45,833 bases of DNA. Origin: Chloroflexota bacterium. Its GTDB lineage: Bacteria > Chloroflexota > Dehalococcoidia > CAUJGQ01. The position numbers were made by a program, and so were the translations under genes. Below are positions 3,363-25,679 of the stretch, piece after piece; positions within the stretch are counted from its first letter, which is position 1; each line of letters begins with the position of its first letter. The notes beneath the pieces were generated by a model. It did not search any database. It was given only the letters and a program-made list of their open reading frames with translations, and was not told the origin of the DNA. The stretch spans positions 1 through 45,833 of the forward strand of contig CAUJGQ010000067.1 of the NCBI GenBank assembly GCA_963170165.1. Direction: 5' to 3'.

Positions 3363-4334
3363 CTACTGCGCGAGCACGCGGCCCAGGTCCATTAGGCTGA
3401 GGTCGAGCGTTTTCTTGCAGGTAACCACCTCCTCCAGCGGGGTGGCGACGATCTCGCCCTGGCGCAGGCCGAGCAGGGCGCCATGCTGGCCGCGTGCCAG
3501 CCGGTCGACCGCGGCAGCGCCCAGGCGGGTGGCGAGCAGCCGGTCGAAGACGCCGGGGGTTCCGCCGCGCTGGACGTGGCCCAGCGTGGTGACGCGCAGG
3601 TCAAAGCCTAGGCGGGCCTGGTGCTCGGTGAAGTAGCGGGCCAGCGCCTCGGCGTTGTAGGCGGCGCCCTCGGCCACCACTGCCAGGGCATGGGCCTTGC
3701 CGCGGTCATAGGCGCCGCGCAGGCTCTCCGCCACCACCTCCGGGTTGGTGTCCACTTCGGGGATGACGATCACCTCGGCGCCGCCGGCGATGCCCGCCAT
3801 CATCGCCAGGTAGCCGCAGTCCCGCCCCATCAGCTCCACCAGAAAGGCGCGCTTATGGGAGGAGGCCGTCACCTTCAGCCGGTCAATCGCCTCCAGCGCG
3901 ATGTTGAGCGCGGTATCGACGCCGATGGTGATATCGGAGCCGTACAGGTCGTTGTCGATGGTGGAGGCGATGCCGGCCACGGGGAAGCCCATGTGCGAGA
4001 GGGCGTAGCTACCCTGCTGCGAGCCGTTGCCGCCAATGACGATCAGCCCCTCGATGCCCTTCTCCTCGAAGCGGGCGAGCGCCTCGCGGCGGATCTCCTC
4101 GTCTTTGAACTCCGGGCAGCGGGCCGTGCCCAGCAGCGTACCGCCCACGTGGAGGATGCCGCCGACATCGCGCGCCCCCAGCCGCGTGATATCCCCGGCG
4201 ATCAGGCCGGCGTAGCCGTGGCGCACACCGAACACTTCCCAGCCGCGGCTGATGCCGGTGCGCACCACGGCGCGGATCGCCGCGTTCATCCCCGGCGCAT
4301 CGCCGCCGCTGGTCACCACCGCAATCCGCTTCAT
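3363..4334 (-). CDS. pfkA: 6-phosphofructokinase
   Basis: A 323-residue group I phosphofructokinase that phosphorylates fructose 6-phosphate in glycolysis. The N-terminal TSGGDAPGMNAAIRA nucleotide loop, the STIDNDLYGSD-TIGVDTALN block with the catalytic TIDND Asp, and MGRDCGYLA are all present, and the length matches bacterial PfkA. In the GGDGS motif the Asp at position 103 is replaced by Asn (GGNGS). Gly104 is kept, which in characterised enzymes favours ATP over pyrophosphate. The start is preceded by GGGAGAAGG. A possible -10 (TACACT read on the minus strand, 4364-4369) lies 30 bases upstream. Confidence 0.93.
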   Translation of the reverse strand: MKRIAVVTSGGDAPGMNAAIRAVVRTGISRGWEVFGVRHGYAGLIAGDITRLGARDVGGILHVGGTLLGTARCPEFKDEEIRREALARFEEKGIEGLIVIGGNGSQQGSYALSHMGFPVAGIASTIDNDLYGSDITIGVDTALNIALEAIDRLKVTASSHKRAFLVELMGRDCGYLAMMAGIAGGAEVIVIPEVDTNPEVVAESLRGAYDRGKAHALAVVAEGAAYNAEALARYFTEHQARLGFDLRVTTLGHVQRGGTPGVFDRLLATRLGAAAVDRLARGQHGALLGLRQGEIVATPLEEVVTCKKTLDLSLMDLGRVLAQ

Positions 4335-4483
4335 ACGCCTTCTCCCGGCCCCCGGCCACCTCTAGTGTAAGCCCGGCTCCGGTATCCGGCACCCGTCCTG
4401 GTGAGACGTCCGGCTTCCCCTACTACTGCCCGACAGACACGGAGCAGGCCGCGTGCGACACTGGGCAGAGAGCGGGTGAACCG

Positions 4484-4663
4484 ATGGATGCAAGAGGGTT
4501 ACGGATTTACTTGATAGGCGCGGTGATCGTCTGGGCCGGCATCCTGCTCAGCAGCGCCGTGCTGCTGGCAGGCTCGGGCGTCTTCGCAGAGTTGCTGCCC
4601 ATCCTGGCCGGTGGGGCGGTCTGGTTTGTACTGATTGTCCCCAGCGCCCTGCGGCGGCGCTGA
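4484..4663 (+). CDS. Small two-helix membrane protein
   Basis: A 59-residue protein with two hydrophobic helices (about residues 8-30 and 37-54) and a terminal RRR. The reading frame is clean from ATG to TGA and ends 17 bases before the ABC transporter ATPase, on the same strand, so it may be the first gene of that operon. I do not recognise a family. The start is not backed by a strong ribosome site (AGCGGGTGAACCG precedes it), so expression is plausible but unproven. Confidence 0.5.
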   Translation: MDARGLRIYLIGAVIVWAGILLSSAVLLAGSGVFAELLPILAGGAVWFVLIVPSALRRR

Positions 4664-4680
4664 GCAGCGGAGGACCGGCC

Positions 4681-5589
4681 ATGGCGCAGCATGCTACAGC
4701 CGCTATCGAGACAGAGGGACTGATCAAGGATTACGGCTCGATTCGGGCGCTGGACGGGCTCAACCTGCGGGTGGAGCCGGGAGAGATCTTCGGCTTTCTC
4801 GGGCCGAACGGCGCCGGCAAGAGCACGACCATCCGCCTGTTATTGGACTTCATCCGCCCCACCGCCGGGCATGCCCGCATCCTGGGGCAGGACTGCCAGC
4901 ACCACCCGGAGCAGGTGCGCGCACAGACCGGCTACCTGCCCGGTGACCTGCGCCTGTACGACAATCTCAGAGGTCGCGAGCACGTGGCGCTGCTGGCCGG
5001 GCTGCGCGGCCGGCGGCCGGATGCGGCGTATCTGCGGCGGCTGACGGAGGCGCTCGATCTGGATCTGGAACGGCAGGCCGGAGCGCTCTCCAAGGGCAAT
5101 CGCCAGAAGCTCGGTGTGCTGCTGGCGCTGATGGCACGGCCGCCGGTGCTGATCCTCGATGAGCCCACCTCCGGCCTGGACCCGATCGTCCAGCACACCG
5201 TCTGGCGGCTGCTGCGTGAGGAGGCAGAGCGCGGTGTCACCGTGTTCTTCTCCTCCCACGTGATCAGCGAGGTGGAGCACACCTGCTCGCGGGTGGGCAT
5301 CCTCCGTGCCGGAAAGCTGGTGGCGGTGGAGCCGGTGGCCGCGCTGCTGGGGCGGGCGCTCCACCGGCTGGAGGTGACCTTCGCCGCGCCGCCGCCGCCA
5401 AGCGCCTTCGCGCTGCCCGGTGTGCGTGAGCTGCGCCGCGAGCACGCCACCGTCTGGCTGGAGACTGCCGGCGGCATTGATGCCACGCTCAAGGCTGTCG
5501 CCGGCTTCCCCGTGGTGGACCTGCGTACCGAGCAGCCCAGCCTGGAGGACGTGCTGCTTACCTACTACCGGCAGGAGGCGGCGGTATGA
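4681..5589 (+). CDS. ABC transporter ATP-binding protein (ABC-2 type)
   Basis: A 302-residue ATPase of the drug/antibiotic exporter type. Walker A GPNGAGKST lies at residues 41-49, the signature LSKGN at 136-140, and Walker B LILDEP at 157-162 followed by the D-loop SGLDP. The H-loop His is in FFSSHVISEVEH. The last 80 residues form the extra domain usual for CcmA/DrrA-like subunits. It overlaps the permease gene by four bases (ATGA), so translation is coupled. The substrate is unknown. Neighbouring genes do not point to a particular export cargo. Confidence 0.93.
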   Translation: MAQHATAAIETEGLIKDYGSIRALDGLNLRVEPGEIFGFLGPNGAGKSTTIRLLLDFIRPTAGHARILGQDCQHHPEQVRAQTGYLPGDLRLYDNLRGREHVALLAGLRGRRPDAAYLRRLTEALDLDLERQAGALSKGNRQKLGVLLALMARPPVLILDEPTSGLDPIVQHTVWRLLREEAERGVTVFFSSHVISEVEHTCSRVGILRAGKLVAVEPVAALLGRALHRLEVTFAAPPPPSAFALPGVRELRREHATVWLETAGGIDATLKAVAGFPVVDLRTEQPSLEDVLLTYYRQEAAV

Positions 5590-6485
5590 TCGCCCTGATG
5601 TGGAAGACGGTGCGCGACCACCGCACCGCTGCCCTGTGGGTGGGGGTGGCGATGTTCCTGATGGCGCTGGTGGATGTGCTGATCTACCCCGAGTACAGCG
5701 CCCAGATGCAGGATTTCGAGCTGCCCGAATACCTGGAGGGCTTCATCGGTGAGGCGGGCGACCTCGCCTCACCCGCGGGCTTCTTCGCCGCCGAGTACTT
5801 CTCGTGGATCGTGTTGCTGCTGGTGACGGTGGCGATCATCGGCGGGACGGCCACGCTGGCGGGGGAGGAGCGGGCCGGCACGCTGGAACTGCTGCTGGCC
5901 GAGCCCATCGCCCGCTGGCGGTTGGTGCTGGCCAAGGCGGCGGGACTAACGCTGGTGGTAACGCTGGCGGCACTGGCCGGGCTGCCGGGCTTTGTGCTTG
6001 GCTACGCCTTTGTCGATGTCGATCTGTCGCTGTGGCGGCTGGCGGCGGCAACGCTGTATCTGCTGCCGGTTACGTTGCTGTTCCTGATGCTGGCGCTATG
6101 GCTGAGCGCGGCGCTGCCCTCGCGCGGGGCGGCGGCCGGGGTGGTGATCGCTGTGGTGGTGGCCGCCTTCTTCATCAACACCATCGGCGCCGCCGTAGAC
6201 CTGCTGGCAACGCCGCGCAAACTGTCGCCGTTCTACTGGTCCGACGCCTCGCGCGTCCTGGCCCATGGCTTCCATGACTGGGGCCGGTCGCTGGTGATGC
6301 TGGCCGGCGCCGCGCTGTTCCTGGCCCTCGCCGTCCGCTCGTTCCAGCGCCGTGACCTCTCCGGCGGCCGTGCCGAGTGGCGGTGGAGACGCGTGACGCG
6401 CAGCGGTGAGCGGGCAACCGGAGCGCCCGATGACGCGGAGCGGCTGGCCGGACGCGGTGGCCGCCCGGTGACGCGGAGCGGCTGA
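5586..6485 (+). CDS. ABC transporter permease (ABC-2 type)
   Basis: A 299-residue integral membrane protein with about six hydrophobic segments: one near residues 14-32, others at about 73-95, 115-140, 150-170, 178-205 and 235-255. The AGEERAGTLELLLAEPIARWRLVLAK segment is the typical cytosolic coupling region of ABC-2 permeases. It pairs with the ATPase that it overlaps by four bases. The last 35 residues or so (from VTRSG on) are low-complexity and encoded by a 38-base tandem DNA repeat that carries on past the stop, so the real functional end is probably near RRDLSGGRAEWRWRR. Confidence 0.88.
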   Translation: MIALMWKTVRDHRTAALWVGVAMFLMALVDVLIYPEYSAQMQDFELPEYLEGFIGEAGDLASPAGFFAAEYFSWIVLLLVTVAIIGGTATLAGEERAGTLELLLAEPIARWRLVLAKAAGLTLVVTLAALAGLPGFVLGYAFVDVDLSLWRLAAATLYLLPVTLLFLMLALWLSAALPSRGAAAGVVIAVVVAAFFINTIGAAVDLLATPRKLSPFYWSDASRVLAHGFHDWGRSLVMLAGAALFLALAVRSFQRRDLSGGRAEWRWRRVTRSGERATGAPDDAERLAGRGGRPVTRSG

Positions 6486-20199: not shown

Positions 20200-20526
20200 C
20201 TACGCCCCGGTCTCCTGCGCCCAGGCGCCGCGGCGGGAGTGGAGCAGCATCAGTGCGCTGCCGCCGGCCAGGCGGACGAGCAGGCGGCGGCTTTCGGCCG
20301 GCAGCAGCGGCAACCGTGGCTCACCGGCCGGCTGCGGCTGCTCCTCGATGGCGATGACCCGCTGGCGGCGGCCGTCGTGCGTCACCCACAGCGGCTCACC
20401 CGCGGGCGCATATACGGCAACCGGCCGGGTGGTCACTACCCGCGGGCGGCGGGCGGTGTGCGGCCTGTCCATCACGGGCCCGGCAAACACGGCGACCATC
20501 GGCGCGACCCCCATCTGCGGCAGCAT
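20200..20526 (-). CDS. DUF6504-like small protein, likely SOS-regulated
   Basis: A 108-residue soluble protein. Residues 28-60 (RVVTTRPVAVYAP, then WVTHDGRRQRVIAIEE) and 80-108 (ESRRLLVRLAGGSALMLLHS, then RRGAWAQ) resemble the two beta segments of DUF6504, which in actinobacteria often lies with imuA/imuB/dnaE2 damage-mutagenesis genes (inference from pattern). A LexA-box-like dyad abuts its start codon. A minus-strand promoter TTGACG-N18-TATAAC is visible upstream, with a second box in its spacer. It is divergent from the terminase operon and probably shares its regulation. No function is proven for the family. Confidence 0.6.
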   Translation of the reverse strand: MLPQMGVAPMVAVFAGPVMDRPHTARRPRVVTTRPVAVYAPAGEPLWVTHDGRRQRVIAIEEQPQPAGEPRLPLLPAESRRLLVRLAGGSALMLLHSRRGAWAQETGA

Positions 20527-20540
20527 CGAACGTCTGTTCG
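20527..20540. promoter_or_regulatory. LexA-box-like operator 1
   Basis: CGAACGTCTGTTCG matches the CGAAC-N4-GTTCG core of the Gram-positive-type SOS box with perfect 5-base arms. It directly abuts the start codon of the minus-strand DUF6504-like gene and would lie at or just after its transcription start. Confidence 0.7.
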
Positions 20541-20543
20541 CTA

Positions 20544-20573
20544 GTTATAGAACATTCGTTTGAATGCCGTCAA
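20544..20573 (-). promoter_or_regulatory. Minus-strand promoter of the DUF6504-like gene with LexA-like operator 2 in its spacer
   Basis: Read on the minus strand, TTGACG (20573-20568) and TATAAC (20549-20544) are separated by 18 bases. The spacer contains GAACATTCGTTT (20550-20561), a GAAC-N4-GTTY dyad with one mismatch. Binding there would block RNA polymerase. Confidence 0.6.
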
Positions 20574-20645
20574 CCCTCATGACGGTTGTTGCTTGACATG
20601 CCGGTACCGCCGCTCCAGTGACATGGATCGGTTGACGCCTTGCAG

Positions 20646-20657
20646 GAACATTTGTTC
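20646..20657. promoter_or_regulatory. LexA-box-like operator 3, before the terminase operon
   Basis: GAACATTTGTTC has perfect GAAC and GTTC arms around ATTT. It lies 60 bases upstream of the first plus-strand gene, after a -35-like TTGACG (20632-20637) and overlapping the place where a -10 would fall (TTCTAT, or TATTGA at 20658-20663). It fits repression of the plus-strand operon. Confidence 0.65.
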
Positions 20658-20716
20658 TATTGACCTACGGCGGTCGCCGGCGGGCCAGGCGCCGTGCCGT
20701 GCAAGGAGGGCAAACG

Positions 20717-21055
20717 ATGACGGGACGCAGGGTACCGCGGCGCAAGCCGCGGACGGGCAACTACTACCAGCCGGTGCTGGAGCGGTCGGCACAGGGCGAC
20801 CTGCAGGACGCCGCCGCGGCCGAGGGCCTGGACGACGAGGTGGCGCTGCTGCGGCTACTGGTGCGGCGCGAGCTGGCGGCGCAGCCAGAGGATATCCGGC
20901 CGCTGCTGCAGGGGTTGACGCTGCTGGTGCGGGCCGTCGCCACCCGCCACCGGATCTCGCCCGCCGATCAGGAGGCGCTGGAGCAGCGCATGGCCGAGGC
21001 GCTCACCGCCCTCACCCTCTCGCTCCAGCGCGATGACGTGGGAGGTGCAGGATGA
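20717..21055 (+). CDS. Small helical protein of the terminase cassette, possibly TerS-like
   Basis: A 112-residue, mostly helical protein with a basic N-terminus (RRVPRRKPRTGNYYQP). Helices follow at about 18-30 (VLERSAQGDLQDAAAAEG), 31-48 (LDDEVALLRLLVRREL), 55-76 (EDIRPLLQGLTLLVRAVATRH) and 79-104. I know similar GLDEEIALLR-type proteins next to terminases in Chloroflexota and their phages, but no named function. The small size, basic tail and place directly before TerL suggest a small-terminase or DNA-binding role (inference). The start has AAGGAGG six bases upstream. The stop overlaps the next start by four bases (ATGA). Confidence 0.7.
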   Translation: MTGRRVPRRKPRTGNYYQPVLERSAQGDLQDAAAAEGLDDEVALLRLLVRRELAAQPEDIRPLLQGLTLLVRAVATRHRISPADQEALEQRMAEALTALTLSLQRDDVGGAG

Positions 21056-21255
21056 GCGAGCAACGTTCGCCCTCGCTGGAGCGCAGCCTGAGCGGGCTGG
21101 CCGCTGCGCAGCGCGCTGCCGCCCGCCGCGCCGTGCTGGAGGAGCGCATCCGCCGCATGGAGCAGGAGCTTGCCGATCTGCGCGGACGGCTGACGGGCCT
21201 GATCTTCCTGGTGCTGGGGGCGGAGATCACGCAGCTGCTGGTGCGGCTGCTGTGA
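21052..21255 (+). CDS. Small coiled-coil/membrane protein, XhlA-like
   Basis: A 67-residue protein. Residues about 10-47 form an amphipathic coiled coil (LEERIRRMEQELADLRGR), then one hydrophobic helix (LTGLIFLVLGAEITQLLVRLL) ends the chain. This layout matches XhlA-type phage accessory lysis proteins and small tail-anchored scaffold proteins; sequence identity to any one is not claimed. It overlaps both neighbours by four bases, so its amount is tied to the helical protein and TerL. It may recruit the cassette to the membrane or act in lysis. Confidence 0.7.
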   Translation: MSEQRSPSLERSLSGLAAAQRAAARRAVLEERIRRMEQELADLRGRLTGLIFLVLGAEITQLLVRLL

Positions 21256-22655
21256 GCGGGACACCGGCCGCGCTGCCGCCGCTACGGCCGTATCAACACC
21301 AGGTGCTGCGGGCGGTGCTGGCCAGTGTGCTCGGCGGCCGCGGCCTCACCTTCTCGGTGATGGTCTCCCGCCAGGGCGGCAAGAACGAGCTGTCCGCCCA
21401 GCTGGAGCTGGCGCTGCTGCTACTGCACGCCGGCCGCACCGCTGACGCGGTCAAGTGCGCCCCGACGCTGCACCCGCAGGGGCTGGTGAGCCTGCGGCGC
21501 CTGTGGTCCCGGGTGGAGGGCTGCGGGCTGGCGGGCGTGGCGCGGCGGGAGGGCGGCAACGCGGTCCGCCTCGGCCGGGCGCGGCAGTTGTTCTTCTCTG
21601 CTGCGCCCGCCGCCGCCGTGGCCGGTCACACCTGTCACCTGCTGCTGGAGTGCGATGAGGCGCAGGACGTGGATGCGGAGACGTTCGACCGCGTCTTCCG
21701 GCCGATGGCCGCCACCACCAACGCCACCACCGTGTATTACGGCACCGCCTGGAGCGAGACCGATCTGCTGGCCACGGTGCGGGAGCGGCACTTGGCACTT
21801 GAGCGGCAGGACGGCATCCGCCGCCACTTCGCGGTGGACTGGCAGGAGGTGGCGCGCTACAACCCGGCCTACGCTACCTATGTCGAAGGCGAGCGGCGGC
21901 GGCTGGGGGAGGAGCATCCGCTGTTCACTACCCAGTATCTGCTGCGACCGCTGGCGGGCGGCGGGCGGCTGCTCTCACCGGCGCAACGGGCGCTGCTGGC
22001 GGGCGCTCATCCCCGGCTGGCGGCGCCCGGCCCCACGGAGCCCGGCCTGCTCGGTTATGTGGCCGGTCTGGATGTGGCAGGGGAGGCGCTGGGCGCGCCG
22101 CCCGGCCGTCACGGTCAGGACGCCACGGTGCTGACCATCGCCCGCGTGCGGGCTGCCGCGCCGGCTGCGCTCGCGCCGGAACCGCAGATTGAGGTGGTGG
22201 AGCAGGCGGTGTGGCGCGGCGTCTCCCATGCTGACCTGACCGGCGGGCTGGCGCGGCTGCTCCTGGCCGTGTGGCGCGTGCGGCGGGTGGTGGTGGATGC
22301 CACCGGCGTCGGCGAGGGGCTGGCGGCCGGGCTGGCCGCGGCGGCGCGGGGGCGTGCCGAGGTGGTGCGGCTGAGGCTGACGGAGGAGCGCAAGAGTGCG
22401 CTGGGCTTCGGCCTGCTGGCTGCGGTCAACAGCGGCCGGTTGCAGCTGTTCCGCGCCGATGGCTCGGCTGAGTGGCGGGCGCTGGCGCGAGAAATGGAGC
22501 TGGCGCGTGCCGCCTACCGGCCCGGCCGCCGCCTGGCCTGGGGGGTCGACCCGGCAGATGGCCACGACGACGCCCTGGTGAGCCTGGCGCTGACGGTGGA
22601 AGCCGCCCGCGGGCTGACGCCGCGCGTCGCCTGGGGCAGCTCCCCGCCGGATTGA
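21252..22655 (+). CDS. Phage-type terminase large subunit (ATPase and nuclease)
   Basis: A 467-residue protein with both halves of a DNA-packaging motor. The ATPase half has a deviant Walker A SRQGGKNE (39-46) and Walker B LLLECDEAQD (130-139), with YYGTAW at 162-167 as the coupling motif. The RNase H-like nuclease half has its acidic residues in GLDVAG (Asp274), VVDATGVG (Asp349) and DGHDDAL (Asp439/440). The length is normal and no frameshift is seen, so it appears functional. The GTG start overlaps the preceding stop (GTGA). The frame is open further upstream, but that part is antisensible filler overlapping two genes. No portal, capsid or tail genes are nearby. Confidence 0.82.
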   Translation: MSGTPAALPPLRPYQHQVLRAVLASVLGGRGLTFSVMVSRQGGKNELSAQLELALLLLHAGRTADAVKCAPTLHPQGLVSLRRLWSRVEGCGLAGVARREGGNAVRLGRARQLFFSAAPAAAVAGHTCHLLLECDEAQDVDAETFDRVFRPMAATTNATTVYYGTAWSETDLLATVRERHLALERQDGIRRHFAVDWQEVARYNPAYATYVEGERRRLGEEHPLFTTQYLLRPLAGGGRLLSPAQRALLAGAHPRLAAPGPTEPGLLGYVAGLDVAGEALGAPPGRHGQDATVLTIARVRAAAPAALAPEPQIEVVEQAVWRGVSHADLTGGLARLLLAVWRVRRVVVDATGVGEGLAAGLAAAARGRAEVVRLRLTEERKSALGFGLLAAVNSGRLQLFRADGSAEWRALAREMELARAAYRPGRRLAWGVDPADGHDDALVSLALTVEAARGLTPRVAWGSSPPD

Positions 22656-22673
22656 GGAAGAGGAGGTACGCCC

Positions 22674-22976
22674 ATGACGGATGCGCCCCACCCGAGCGGC
22701 CCCGCGCTGCCGGCACTGGACATGCTGCCGGAGCACACCCGCTACCAGGACACCGGCTGCGTGATGGCGCCCGCCTGCCTGCGCTGCCATCTGCCGATCT
22801 GCATTTACGATGATCCCCGCGGCCTCCGCGGCGCCACCCAGCAGGAACGTGATGCAGATATCGCCCGCCGGCTGGCCGGGGGGGAACACAGCGACGCGCT
22901 CGCACGGGAGTACGGCATCTCCCGCCGCCAGGTGTTCCGCATCCTGCGGCGGTTGCGCGTAGAACCAGCCGAATGA
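22674..22976 (+). CDS. Cys4 and helix-turn-helix protein of the terminase cassette
   Basis: A 100-residue protein with a zinc-binding-like cluster Cys29, Cys35, Cys38, Cys43 (pattern Cx5CxxCx4C, followed by IYD). After it comes an HTH at about 60-96 (DIARRLAGGEHSDALAREYGISRRQVFRILRRL) similar to resolvase/HTH_23 types. It begins 18 bases after TerL with GAGGAGG upstream, so it ends the operon. It may be a DNA-binding partner of TerL or a regulator of the cassette. Related Cys4-HTH proteins are frequent in Chloroflexota genomes (from memory; not verified here). Confidence 0.7.
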   Translation: MTDAPHPSGPALPALDMLPEHTRYQDTGCVMAPACLRCHLPICIYDDPRGLRGATQQERDADIARRLAGGEHSDALAREYGISRRQVFRILRRLRVEPAE

Positions 22977-23346: not shown

Positions 23347-24420
23347 TCAGAAGCCGTACGCCAGCCAGGCGCGCTCGTCTAGATAGCGGCGGATGCGGGC
23401 TATGTACTGCTCGGCGGCGGCGCTGTGCCAGTCGCCGGTGTACCACAAGCCGATGCAGCCCCACTCGTCACCGTGGGCCTCGTCCGGCACCCAGTGGAAG
23501 TCACCTTCGAAGCAGGCCCGCCGCCAGGCCAGCGCGTAGTCAACGTTCAACGCGGTGGAGAGCGCCGACCAAGGGTGCGTGCCGCCGTGGACGGAGGCTT
23601 TCACCTGGAGGATGCCGAAGGTGTGCCCCTCGTCGCCGACGAAGTCTTGCCGCCACGAGCTTTCACCGGCCGCCACGGCGCGCACCGTGTCCAGGTCAAA
23701 GCCCCACTTGCAGGCGCCCCACTGCAGGATCTCATCGGTGGTGCCGGTGAAGGCGCCATCGATGCGCGGGAAGATGTCCTCCAGCGCCGCCGGCGCCAGA
23801 TCATACCAGGGATCGAGCGCGAGCTGATCCGGCGTGGTGTGATTGGGAAGCGTGTTCTCCGGGCGCGGCTCCCAGGTGTTGCGGCGGACAGCGGCGGCGC
23901 AGGTCGCGCCATCGGGCAGCGACGTCCCCGGCGGCAGCGTGAGGAAGGGGAACACCGGGCCGGACGGCAAGGGTACCGGCGGCTCGCCCGGCGCCGCTAC
24001 CACCAGCTCTGCCGCCACATCCTGCCAGTGACGCAGCTCTCCCCAACCGGGGGCAAACACGCCGGTAGAGATGAGGTATACCCCGCGCTCGGCCGCCGCC
24101 GGCACGCTCCAGGCCAGGCGCAGCGTGACGGGCGTCTCCGGCGCGAGCGAGTGGCCGTCTTCAAATCGCTGGGCGACGCGGGCGCCGTTGGGCAGCCGCA
24201 CCTCGACATCGAGCAGCGCGGCCTGCGCCGTCTCGCTGCGGAACGTGGCGGTGATCACCGCCTCCTCCCCCGTGCGCGCCACGGCCGGCGCCTGCACCTG
24301 CACCGTCACGCCCGTCTGCGCCTTGACAGCGCCCGTGGTCGCTATCCCTGCGAACAGCCGCGCTGCGATCAGCACTGCCACCACCACGCCCGCCCGCTGT
24401 CTGCTCACCGGTTGCTCCAC
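23347..24420 (-). CDS. Secreted protein with a lysozyme/transglycosylase-like domain
   Basis: A 357-residue protein with a signal peptide (about residues 11-35, ending VKAQ). Residues 38-140 form a CARDB-like beta sandwich, then a Pro-rich linker. Residues about 225-350 resemble an SLT-type muramidase fold: AAGESSWRQDFVGDEGHTFGILQVK carries the likely catalytic Glu and the GxxxGILQ motif, and WGCIGLWYTGDWH follows. It would act on peptidoglycan outside the membrane, or be an inactive relative. It is near, but not in, the terminase cassette and faces the other way. Confidence 0.7.
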   Translation of the reverse strand: MEQPVSRQRAGVVVAVLIAARLFAGIATTGAVKAQTGVTVQVQAPAVARTGEEAVITATFRSETAQAALLDVEVRLPNGARVAQRFEDGHSLAPETPVTLRLAWSVPAAAERGVYLISTGVFAPGWGELRHWQDVAAELVVAAPGEPPVPLPSGPVFPFLTLPPGTSLPDGATCAAAVRRNTWEPRPENTLPNHTTPDQLALDPWYDLAPAALEDIFPRIDGAFTGTTDEILQWGACKWGFDLDTVRAVAAGESSWRQDFVGDEGHTFGILQVKASVHGGTHPWSALSTALNVDYALAWRRACFEGDFHWVPDEAHGDEWGCIGLWYTGDWHSAAAEQYIARIRRYLDERAWLAYGF

Positions 24421-24549: not shown

Positions 24550-24933
24550 ATGTGGTGGGATCGGGAGCGGCCGTGGAGTGTGATGGTAGCGCCGATCGTG
24601 GCGCTGGCGGTGATGCTCGGCTACTTCTTCCTGTTTGACCGCTGGGAGCACCTGGAGAACCCGATTGCCTCGCAACTGGCAATCGGCGCGGCGCTGGCGG
24701 GCTTTGTCGCGGCGCTGGCGGCGCAGCGGATCACCCGCTGGTGGCTGCTGCTGGTTCCCGGCCTGCTGGCCGCTGTCGCCGGCATCTGGGCCTATCTTGC
24801 CCCCACCGAGACCCCAGACGACTACAACTTCCGTAACACGCTGTGGGTGCTGACCGCCGTGCTGGTCATTACCACAGTGGCCGTCAACCTGCCGCAGATC
24901 ATCCGCGGCCGCTATCAGCGCCCGGAGGCATAA
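24550..24933 (+). CDS. Four-helix membrane protein of unknown function
   Basis: A 127-residue protein opening MWWDRERPWSVMVAPIVALAVML with four predicted membrane helices (about 10-28, 41-58, 63-82 and 98-116) and a basic tail. A -35/-10 pair TTGCCC-N17-TAGATT (24490-24518) lies just upstream. The ATG follows GCAGGAGCAGGTGCG. The frame is open far upstream, but that part is antisense to the lysozyme-like gene. The prepilin peptidase gene follows 62 bases later. Confidence 0.7.
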   Translation: MWWDRERPWSVMVAPIVALAVMLGYFFLFDRWEHLENPIASQLAIGAALAGFVAALAAQRITRWWLLLVPGLLAAVAGIWAYLAPTETPDDYNFRNTLWVLTAVLVITTVAVNLPQIIRGRYQRPEA

Positions 24934-24995
24934 GCTCCGCGCCCGCCCGCGCCGATGGTTTCCCTGGGGATACCGTCCCCAAGCGACGCGCTGCC

Positions 24996-25679
24996 GTGCT
25001 CACCGCCATCGCCGCCATCATTGGCTACGCCGCCGGAACGCTGATCGCGCTGCTGCTGGAGCGGCTGTACACCGGCGCGCCCTGGCGCGGGCCGCTGCGC
25101 CCTTGCCATCCGGCGCTGTGGGCCGGCGCCGCCGGCTACCTGCTGGCGCGCGGGCGCGGTCCCGGCGGCACGCCGCTGGCTACCCGCTACGCCTATCTGC
25201 CGGTACTGGGCGCGGCGGCGGGTGCGGCCATTGCCCTGCGGGTGAGCGACCCGCGCCACGCGCTGCTGGCGGCGGTGTTTGCCCTGCCGCTGCTGGCATT
25301 CGTGGCTACGGACTTCGAGCGTCACTTGTTGCCCAATCGCATGATGTACCCGGCGATTGCCGCCGCGGCGCTGCTGTGCTGGGCGTGGCCCGGCCGCTCA
25401 CCGGTATGGGTGCTGGCGGGGGGTGGGCTGGCCTTTGCGCTGCTGTTCGTGCTGTTTGTGATCATCCCCGGCTTCGGCTACGGCGATGTCAAGCTGGCTG
25501 GGCTGCTGGGGTTGCTGTGCGGCTGGCCCGCCATCATCTCGGCGCTGGCGGTGGGCGCCGTGGCGGCCGGGGCGGGTGTCGTGCTGATGCTCGCCACCCG
25601 CCGCATCGGCCGCCGCTCGGCCATTGCCTACGGCCCCTACCTCATCTTCGGCGGCTTCCTCACCATGCTTGCCGCCTGA
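24996..25679 (+). CDS. A24 family prepilin peptidase
   Basis: A 227-residue polytopic membrane aspartyl peptidase. The catalytic aspartates are in VATDFERHLLPNR (about residue 108) and GFGYGDVKLAGLL (about 164; the GxGD motif). The N-terminal cytosolic methyltransferase domain with its CxxC pair is missing, so it is the short, peptidase-only type. Pilin genes are not in the window. The start is uncertain: the GTG at 24996 is the first in-frame start codon outside the preceding gene, but it has no clear ribosome site. Confidence 0.85.
   Translation: MLTAIAAIIGYAAGTLIALLLERLYTGAPWRGPLRPCHPALWAGAAGYLLARGRGPGGTPLATRYAYLPVLGAAAGAAIALRVSDPRHALLAAVFALPLLAFVATDFERHLLPNRMMYPAIAAAALLCWAWPGRSPVWVLAGGGLAFALLFVLFVIIPGFGYGDVKLAGLLGLLCGWPAIISALAVGAVAAGAGVVLMLATRRIGRRSAIAYGPYLIFGGFLTMLAA

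Follow-up and report, generated by a model that had tools for sequence, protein, structure and literature searches.

A LexA-box-flanked DNA-packaging cassette in a Chloroflexota genome as candidate module of a multi-locus, phage-derived gene transfer agent-like system

According to a 2024 review (PMC11841831), experiments have documented gene transfer agents (GTAs) only in alphaproteobacteria, Brachyspira, Desulfovibrio and Methanococcus, and how widespread they really are is an open question. A multi-locus organisation is typical of GTAs (PMC11841831), and Caulobacter GTA particles aid recombination-dependent DNA repair (PMC9632790). VSH-1 of Brachyspira is, to go by the title of Stanton 2009 (cited in PMC11841831), likewise a GTA with a divided genome. 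In searches of open-licence papers on GTAs in Chloroflexota or Dehalococcoidia and on phage-like particles in Dehalococcoides, no system of this type was encountered. The Chloroflexota system described here resembles RcGTA and the Caulobacter GTA in having phage-derived head and packaging genes, several loci, vertical inheritance and host regulation; in contrast, its packaging and capsid operons bear the LexA boxes that mark the SOS regulon of the host itself. It has an SPP1-type portal and a GP7/SU10-like capsid, and is set beside the alphaproteobacterial GTAs by description; VSH-1, which belongs to another phylum, is likened to it by description as well.

The window, that is the whole stretch of 45,833 nt that was analysed, carries between nt 20528 and 22976 two perfect LexA-type boxes and one near-perfect box, followed by four genes:

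20200–20526, minus strand: divergent 108-aa ORF, weakly DUF6504-like, bordering the LexA-box region that it has in common with the cassette
20528–20539, no strand: LexA box 1, GAACGTCTGTTC, dyad pattern GAACN4GTTY
20550–20561, no strand: near-perfect LexA box, GAACATTCGTTT, dyad pattern GAACN4GTTY
20646–20657, no strand: LexA box 2, GAACATTTGTTC, same dyad pattern, 60 bases ahead of the first gene
20717–21055, plus strand: TerS-like protein, 112 aa (P0001), from the family alignment, a relative's PHROG matches and its place before TerL
21052–21255, plus strand: coiled-coil protein, 67 aa, with a hydrophobic helix at its C-terminus (P0002), from same-position homologues in relatives
21252–22655, plus strand: TerL, 467 aa, with both the ATPase and the RNase H-like nuclease intact, from Pfam, PHROG, conserved residues and fold
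22674–22976, plus strand: Cys4 and HTH protein, 100 aa, Mor/late-activator-like, from profile matches and gene neighbourhood in relatives

ORF and dyad scans placed the four genes and the three dyads where a preliminary description of this DNA had located them. The 112-aa and 67-aa genes overlap by 4 bases (nt 21052–21055), and TerL starts from a GTG codon at nt 21252, overlapping the stop of the 67-aa gene. The 112-aa protein owes its TerS name to its position before TerL and to a relative, L076, matching PHROG TerS families at 2e-5; its predicted structure (pLDDT 69) had no significant viral match in a structure search. Pfam searches returned no usable family name for either P0001 or P0002, and no curated family scored above its cut-off with the 67-aa protein, the gene of which is conserved between TerS and TerL in the relatives. 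The Cys4-HTH gene precedes the portal gene in relatives, including those in which the portal is distant from TerL. As for the divergent ORF, its DUF6504-like label is weakly supported: 21 residues aligned (E 0.001) with the gene that precedes dnaE2 in this genome, and no Pfam match was obtained. A DUF6504-like gene was observed between imuB and dnaE2 (L307, nt 624–1121), in the SOS mutagenesis operon region of the same genome.

The product of nt 21252–22655 is, by sequence and structural model, a genuine TerL with intact ATPase and nuclease residues, in agreement with the preliminary description. It matched Pfam Terminase_6C above the cut-off and PHROG TerL at 2e-7. In 30 relatives, little or no variation was seen in its Walker A (SRQGGKNE) and Walker B (LLECDEAQ) motifs, in the coupling residue of GTxW or in the acidic nuclease residues D273, D348 and D438/D439. 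Since a sequence search of the PDB gave a chance-level match only, the placement was settled by fold, the AlphaFold model (pLDDT 89.5) having HK97 TerL 6z6d as best structural match (E 2e-17), and also matching Sf6 and T4 gp17. Neither a portal nor a capsid, tail or integrase gene could be recognised among those ORFs and proteins of the window that were examined, as previously claimed, and the integrase matches of this genome, among those listed, lie on other contigs; the contiguous structural genes and integrase of an ordinary prophage are not what this locus displays.

Dyads of the GAACN4GTTY pattern gave five hits in the window, deriving from three sites (the two perfect ones count on both strands), against a mean of 0.57 and a maximum of 4 in shuffled sequence, with 0 of 100 shuffles reaching five. 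Across the own genome, GAACRNNYGTTC is present at 23 sites, compared with 4 for the reversed control, and, as read from the ORFs beside the boxes, these sites precede recA, imuB, dnaE2, uvrD, radA and dinP, while lexA itself has a pair of boxes immediately before its start codon. The SOS control of the cassette, at first proposed from the dyads, is well supported because the operator is the same that marks lexA and all of these genes. Three of the 23 sites belong to the head/packaging system, namely two in the window and one on a second contig, C31. In the loci fetched across relatives, after removal of duplicates, 26 of 50 distinct GAACN4GTTC sites fell in the 5' zones of head/packaging operons, zones that account for 5.8% of the sequence, compared with 2 of 23 for the reversed control; a first count of box enrichment in these zones had given a p of 7.5e-21. 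In six genomes (G000, which is the window's own, G034, G060, G083, G173 and G206), the TerL operon and the capsid operon each have a box.

Contig C31 (L121) shows, in this order, host genes of the VIT1 family and PAP2, a LexA box (nt 2884–2895) directly ahead of the scaffold gene, the scaffold, the major capsid protein (MCP; G000:C31:3453-4331, E 2e-138 with the capsid profile and 2e-70 with PHROG major head), a protein of 170 aa and an adaptor, the latter identified with a local profile. A papain-like protein, a possible hydrolase and a holin-like protein follow the adaptor, these three being assigned by eye only. The neighbours examined at both the window and C31 loci are host genes, and the nearest capsid and the nearest TerL both come from the family's only other genome. 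Judged from their operator sequences, the packaging module in the window and the scaffold-capsid-adaptor operon on C31 are both placed within the LexA regulon of their own genome. The term "stand-alone", formerly applied to this TerL, is wrong in one respect, because a capsid operon is present elsewhere in the same genome; moreover, many relatives keep the portal beside TerL. Neither a portal nor a tail protein, the latter also searched with a closer query, was found in this genome (97%-complete draft, 213 contigs), which may reflect an assembly gap or a true loss and makes a complete particle putative there. One tail match, with E 9e-6 across 99 codons of a frame of 1078 aa, was taken as chance; the closer query found nothing.

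In a sample of 294 genomes from the host class, TerL relatives were found in 168, usually one per genome, a matching portal in 144 and a matching capsid in 130. The named TerL relatives include Dehalococcoidia and Dehalococcoidales (L054, L046), which makes Dehalococcoidia the probable host class, with more distant kin in Anaerolineae and in one Ktedonobacteraceae genome. Clustering of neighbours returned the same four-gene order of TerS, coiled-coil protein, TerL and Cys4-HTH, often continued by a portal. The portal family is named SPP1-type by both PHROGs and Pfam, and the other structural families recovered by the clustering are a coiled-coil scaffold-like protein, a GP7/SU10-like MCP and an SU10-like adaptor. 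The packaging and head genes that hosts of this class keep are of phage derivation, as expected for a GTA.

The scattered loci typical of such agents were also found. In 49 of the 77 genomes having TerL, portal and capsid, at least one of the three sits on a different contig or is separated by over 15 kb, as in the own genome (TerL on C67, MCP on C31), bearing in mind that "different contig" counts are inflated by contig breaks in draft genomes. In single-contig genomes the separations range from 47 kb to 1.3 Mb (G067, G145, G123, G199), the widest being 1.1–1.3 Mb. A simple prophage had been expected to reveal itself by portal and capsid genes nearby in most genomes; this is the case for the portal, within 15 kb of TerL in 57/82 genomes, but not for the capsid (only 34/78). 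Regarding inheritance, the nearest neighbour was in the same family for 50/55 TerLs, 28/32 portals and 20/23 MCPs, compared with 42/43 for RpoB. The TerL tree requires 38 family changes (minimum 33; 76.8 when shuffled), with most families staying together. Distance correlations with RpoB are moderate (TerL 0.40, portal 0.54 and capsid 0.30, each with p ≤ 0.005), and inside the window's clade TerL and portal track RpoB whereas the capsid (8 genomes) does not; vertical inheritance is accordingly visible at the family level only, with moderate agreement deeper. Close-pair dN/dS values lie mostly at 0.07–0.24, the highest being 0.36 and 0.63, from two TerL pairs, and 0.45, from a single portal pair that is very diverged. 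Judged by sequence, TerL, portal and capsid are class-wide, mostly single-copy, mostly family-inherited, under purifying selection and often at separate loci.

We assign a probability of roughly 60% to the reading in which the cassette supplies the packaging module of a GTA-like system that is phage-derived, host-kept, SOS-wired, vertically inherited and multi-locus, the domesticated option being the best of the three that the preliminary description had offered. That a conserved, LexA-controlled, multi-locus head and packaging system of phage derivation exists is very probable, and a role as gene transfer agent within the class is favoured on balance; for the window's own genome such a candidate function is rated lower, until a portal is found.

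The origin of the system is illuminated by its phage kin. The capsid shares 39–40% identity over its full length with Streptomyces phage Rowa, Gordonia phage Ewald and Paenibacillus larvae phages, which have a capsid of the same family and, unlike the Chloroflexota system, are free phages. Among cultured phages, TerL matched only Bacillus phage vB_BboS-125 (35% over 61%). IMG/VR holds hundreds of contigs with these genes, and the longer ones examined include true phages in which they are contiguous (L372, L354, L356, L359, L318/L319). The 20-kb contig L372 (IMGVR_UViG_3300027740_000108), the ends of which overlap by 137 bases at 99%, is likely a complete small phage relative. Its TerS, TerL, portal, scaffold, MCP and adaptor genes are of the same families as ours; it differs from the Chloroflexota system in their contiguity, in its end overlap, in lacking a LexA box and in its TerL, which falls outside the window's clade. 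No phage TerL is found inside this 48-row clade. Since such kin phages exist and their TerLs cluster in the tree with those of certain class members, the system stems from a phage lineage still alive, and some class loci may be real prophages. Two further IMG/VR contigs (L184, L348) carry clusters of Cys4-HTH, portal, scaffold, MCP and tail genes that lack TerL and are bordered by host-type genes for secreted proteins; they are probably chromosomal loci filed as viruses, a warning that chromosomal fragments of this kind sit among virus collections. On L335, also from IMG/VR, portal and scaffold are immediately followed by a serine-recombinase-like gene (nt 4068–5855) in opposite orientation, which suggests an insertion into the cluster.

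The same kin phages form the basis of the most serious alternative, according to which a phage family common in the class integrated repeatedly, its genomes were broken by rearrangement and the window retains a leftover packaging block. The contiguous TerS-to-adaptor order of these phages agrees with it, as do the 28 of 77 genomes with TerL, portal and capsid within 15 kb, the broken copies of some lineages (a fragmented MCP in G044, a fragmented portal in both G059 and G076) and the own genome with its undetected portal and tail. We nevertheless regard it as unlikely. Against it speak the intact TerL catalytic residues, the mostly low dN/dS values, the family-level inheritance and a constant spacing within genera, such as the 34–36 kb between portal and MCP in G194, G250 and G232. 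In addition, each fragment has separate LexA boxes, and none of the six phage-type IMG/VR contigs examined has an exact R..Y LexA box.

LexA boxes together with head genes, and the kin phages in IMG/VR, could also be read as a functional SOS-induced prophage or satellite with a split genome, packaging mainly itself. This is very improbable, as single-contig genomes have the loci up to megabases apart, one integrase match (G255) among those listed lies within 15 kb of TerL, portal or capsid, and host genes flank the loci of both the window and C31. Finally, a TerL repurposed as a capsid-independent DNA translocase/nuclease for repair or defence, also put forward in the preliminary description, would suit the SOS control shared with repair genes and an assembly without a detected portal, but found no support and was dropped as barely credible because it leaves the co-regulated, intact scaffold and capsid operon of the same genome unexplained, the TerS-like partner being moreover kept and the portal so often close to TerL in relatives.

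For the GTA-like system, we can thus propose a working model. Upon DNA damage, LexA would be cleaved and the packaging and head operons both transcribed, a regulatory step strongly supported by the operator sequences; the Cys4-HTH protein might act as a late activator. From here on we infer: scaffolded heads would assemble, TerS/TerL would load them through the portal, headful-fashion, with chromosomal DNA, lysis proteins would free the particles and neighbours could use the particle DNA, for example for recombinational repair. If these loci have neither an integrase nor a compact genome, the packaged DNA would be mostly chromosomal. We give even odds to the broadest version, in which an ancient class-wide Chloroflexota GTA has its motor and head as separate LexA-fired operons and answers damage by exporting host DNA for the repair of kin. 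If true, the candidate would bring GTAs into a phylum whose members are largely uncultured and would suggest damage repair as a selective reason for GTAs. It was found through co-regulation and scattering rather than likeness to a known GTA, and the same repressor box ahead of separated head and packaging operons is offered as a search rule.

A few additional observations were made. Convergent with the cassette, a secreted protein (nt 23347–24420, minus strand) has a C-terminus resembling a lytic transglycosylase by eye and is a possible, putative lysis candidate; 2 kb downstream of the cassette, a type IV prepilin peptidase (Pfam A24; nt 24843–25679, plus strand) is a possible candidate link to DNA uptake. 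Two single-contig genomes, G067 and G199, have two TerS-TerL copies each at far-apart chromosomal sites (L075/L076 and L091/L092). TerL kin were also observed in Chloroflexota outside the sampled clade, several of them named Anaerolineales (L036, L040, L043, L045, L047, L048, L049, L053); these loci differ in their portal (PHROG 10963 in L036), encode a long protein of some 670 aa and possibly represent a second such system or a prophage family.
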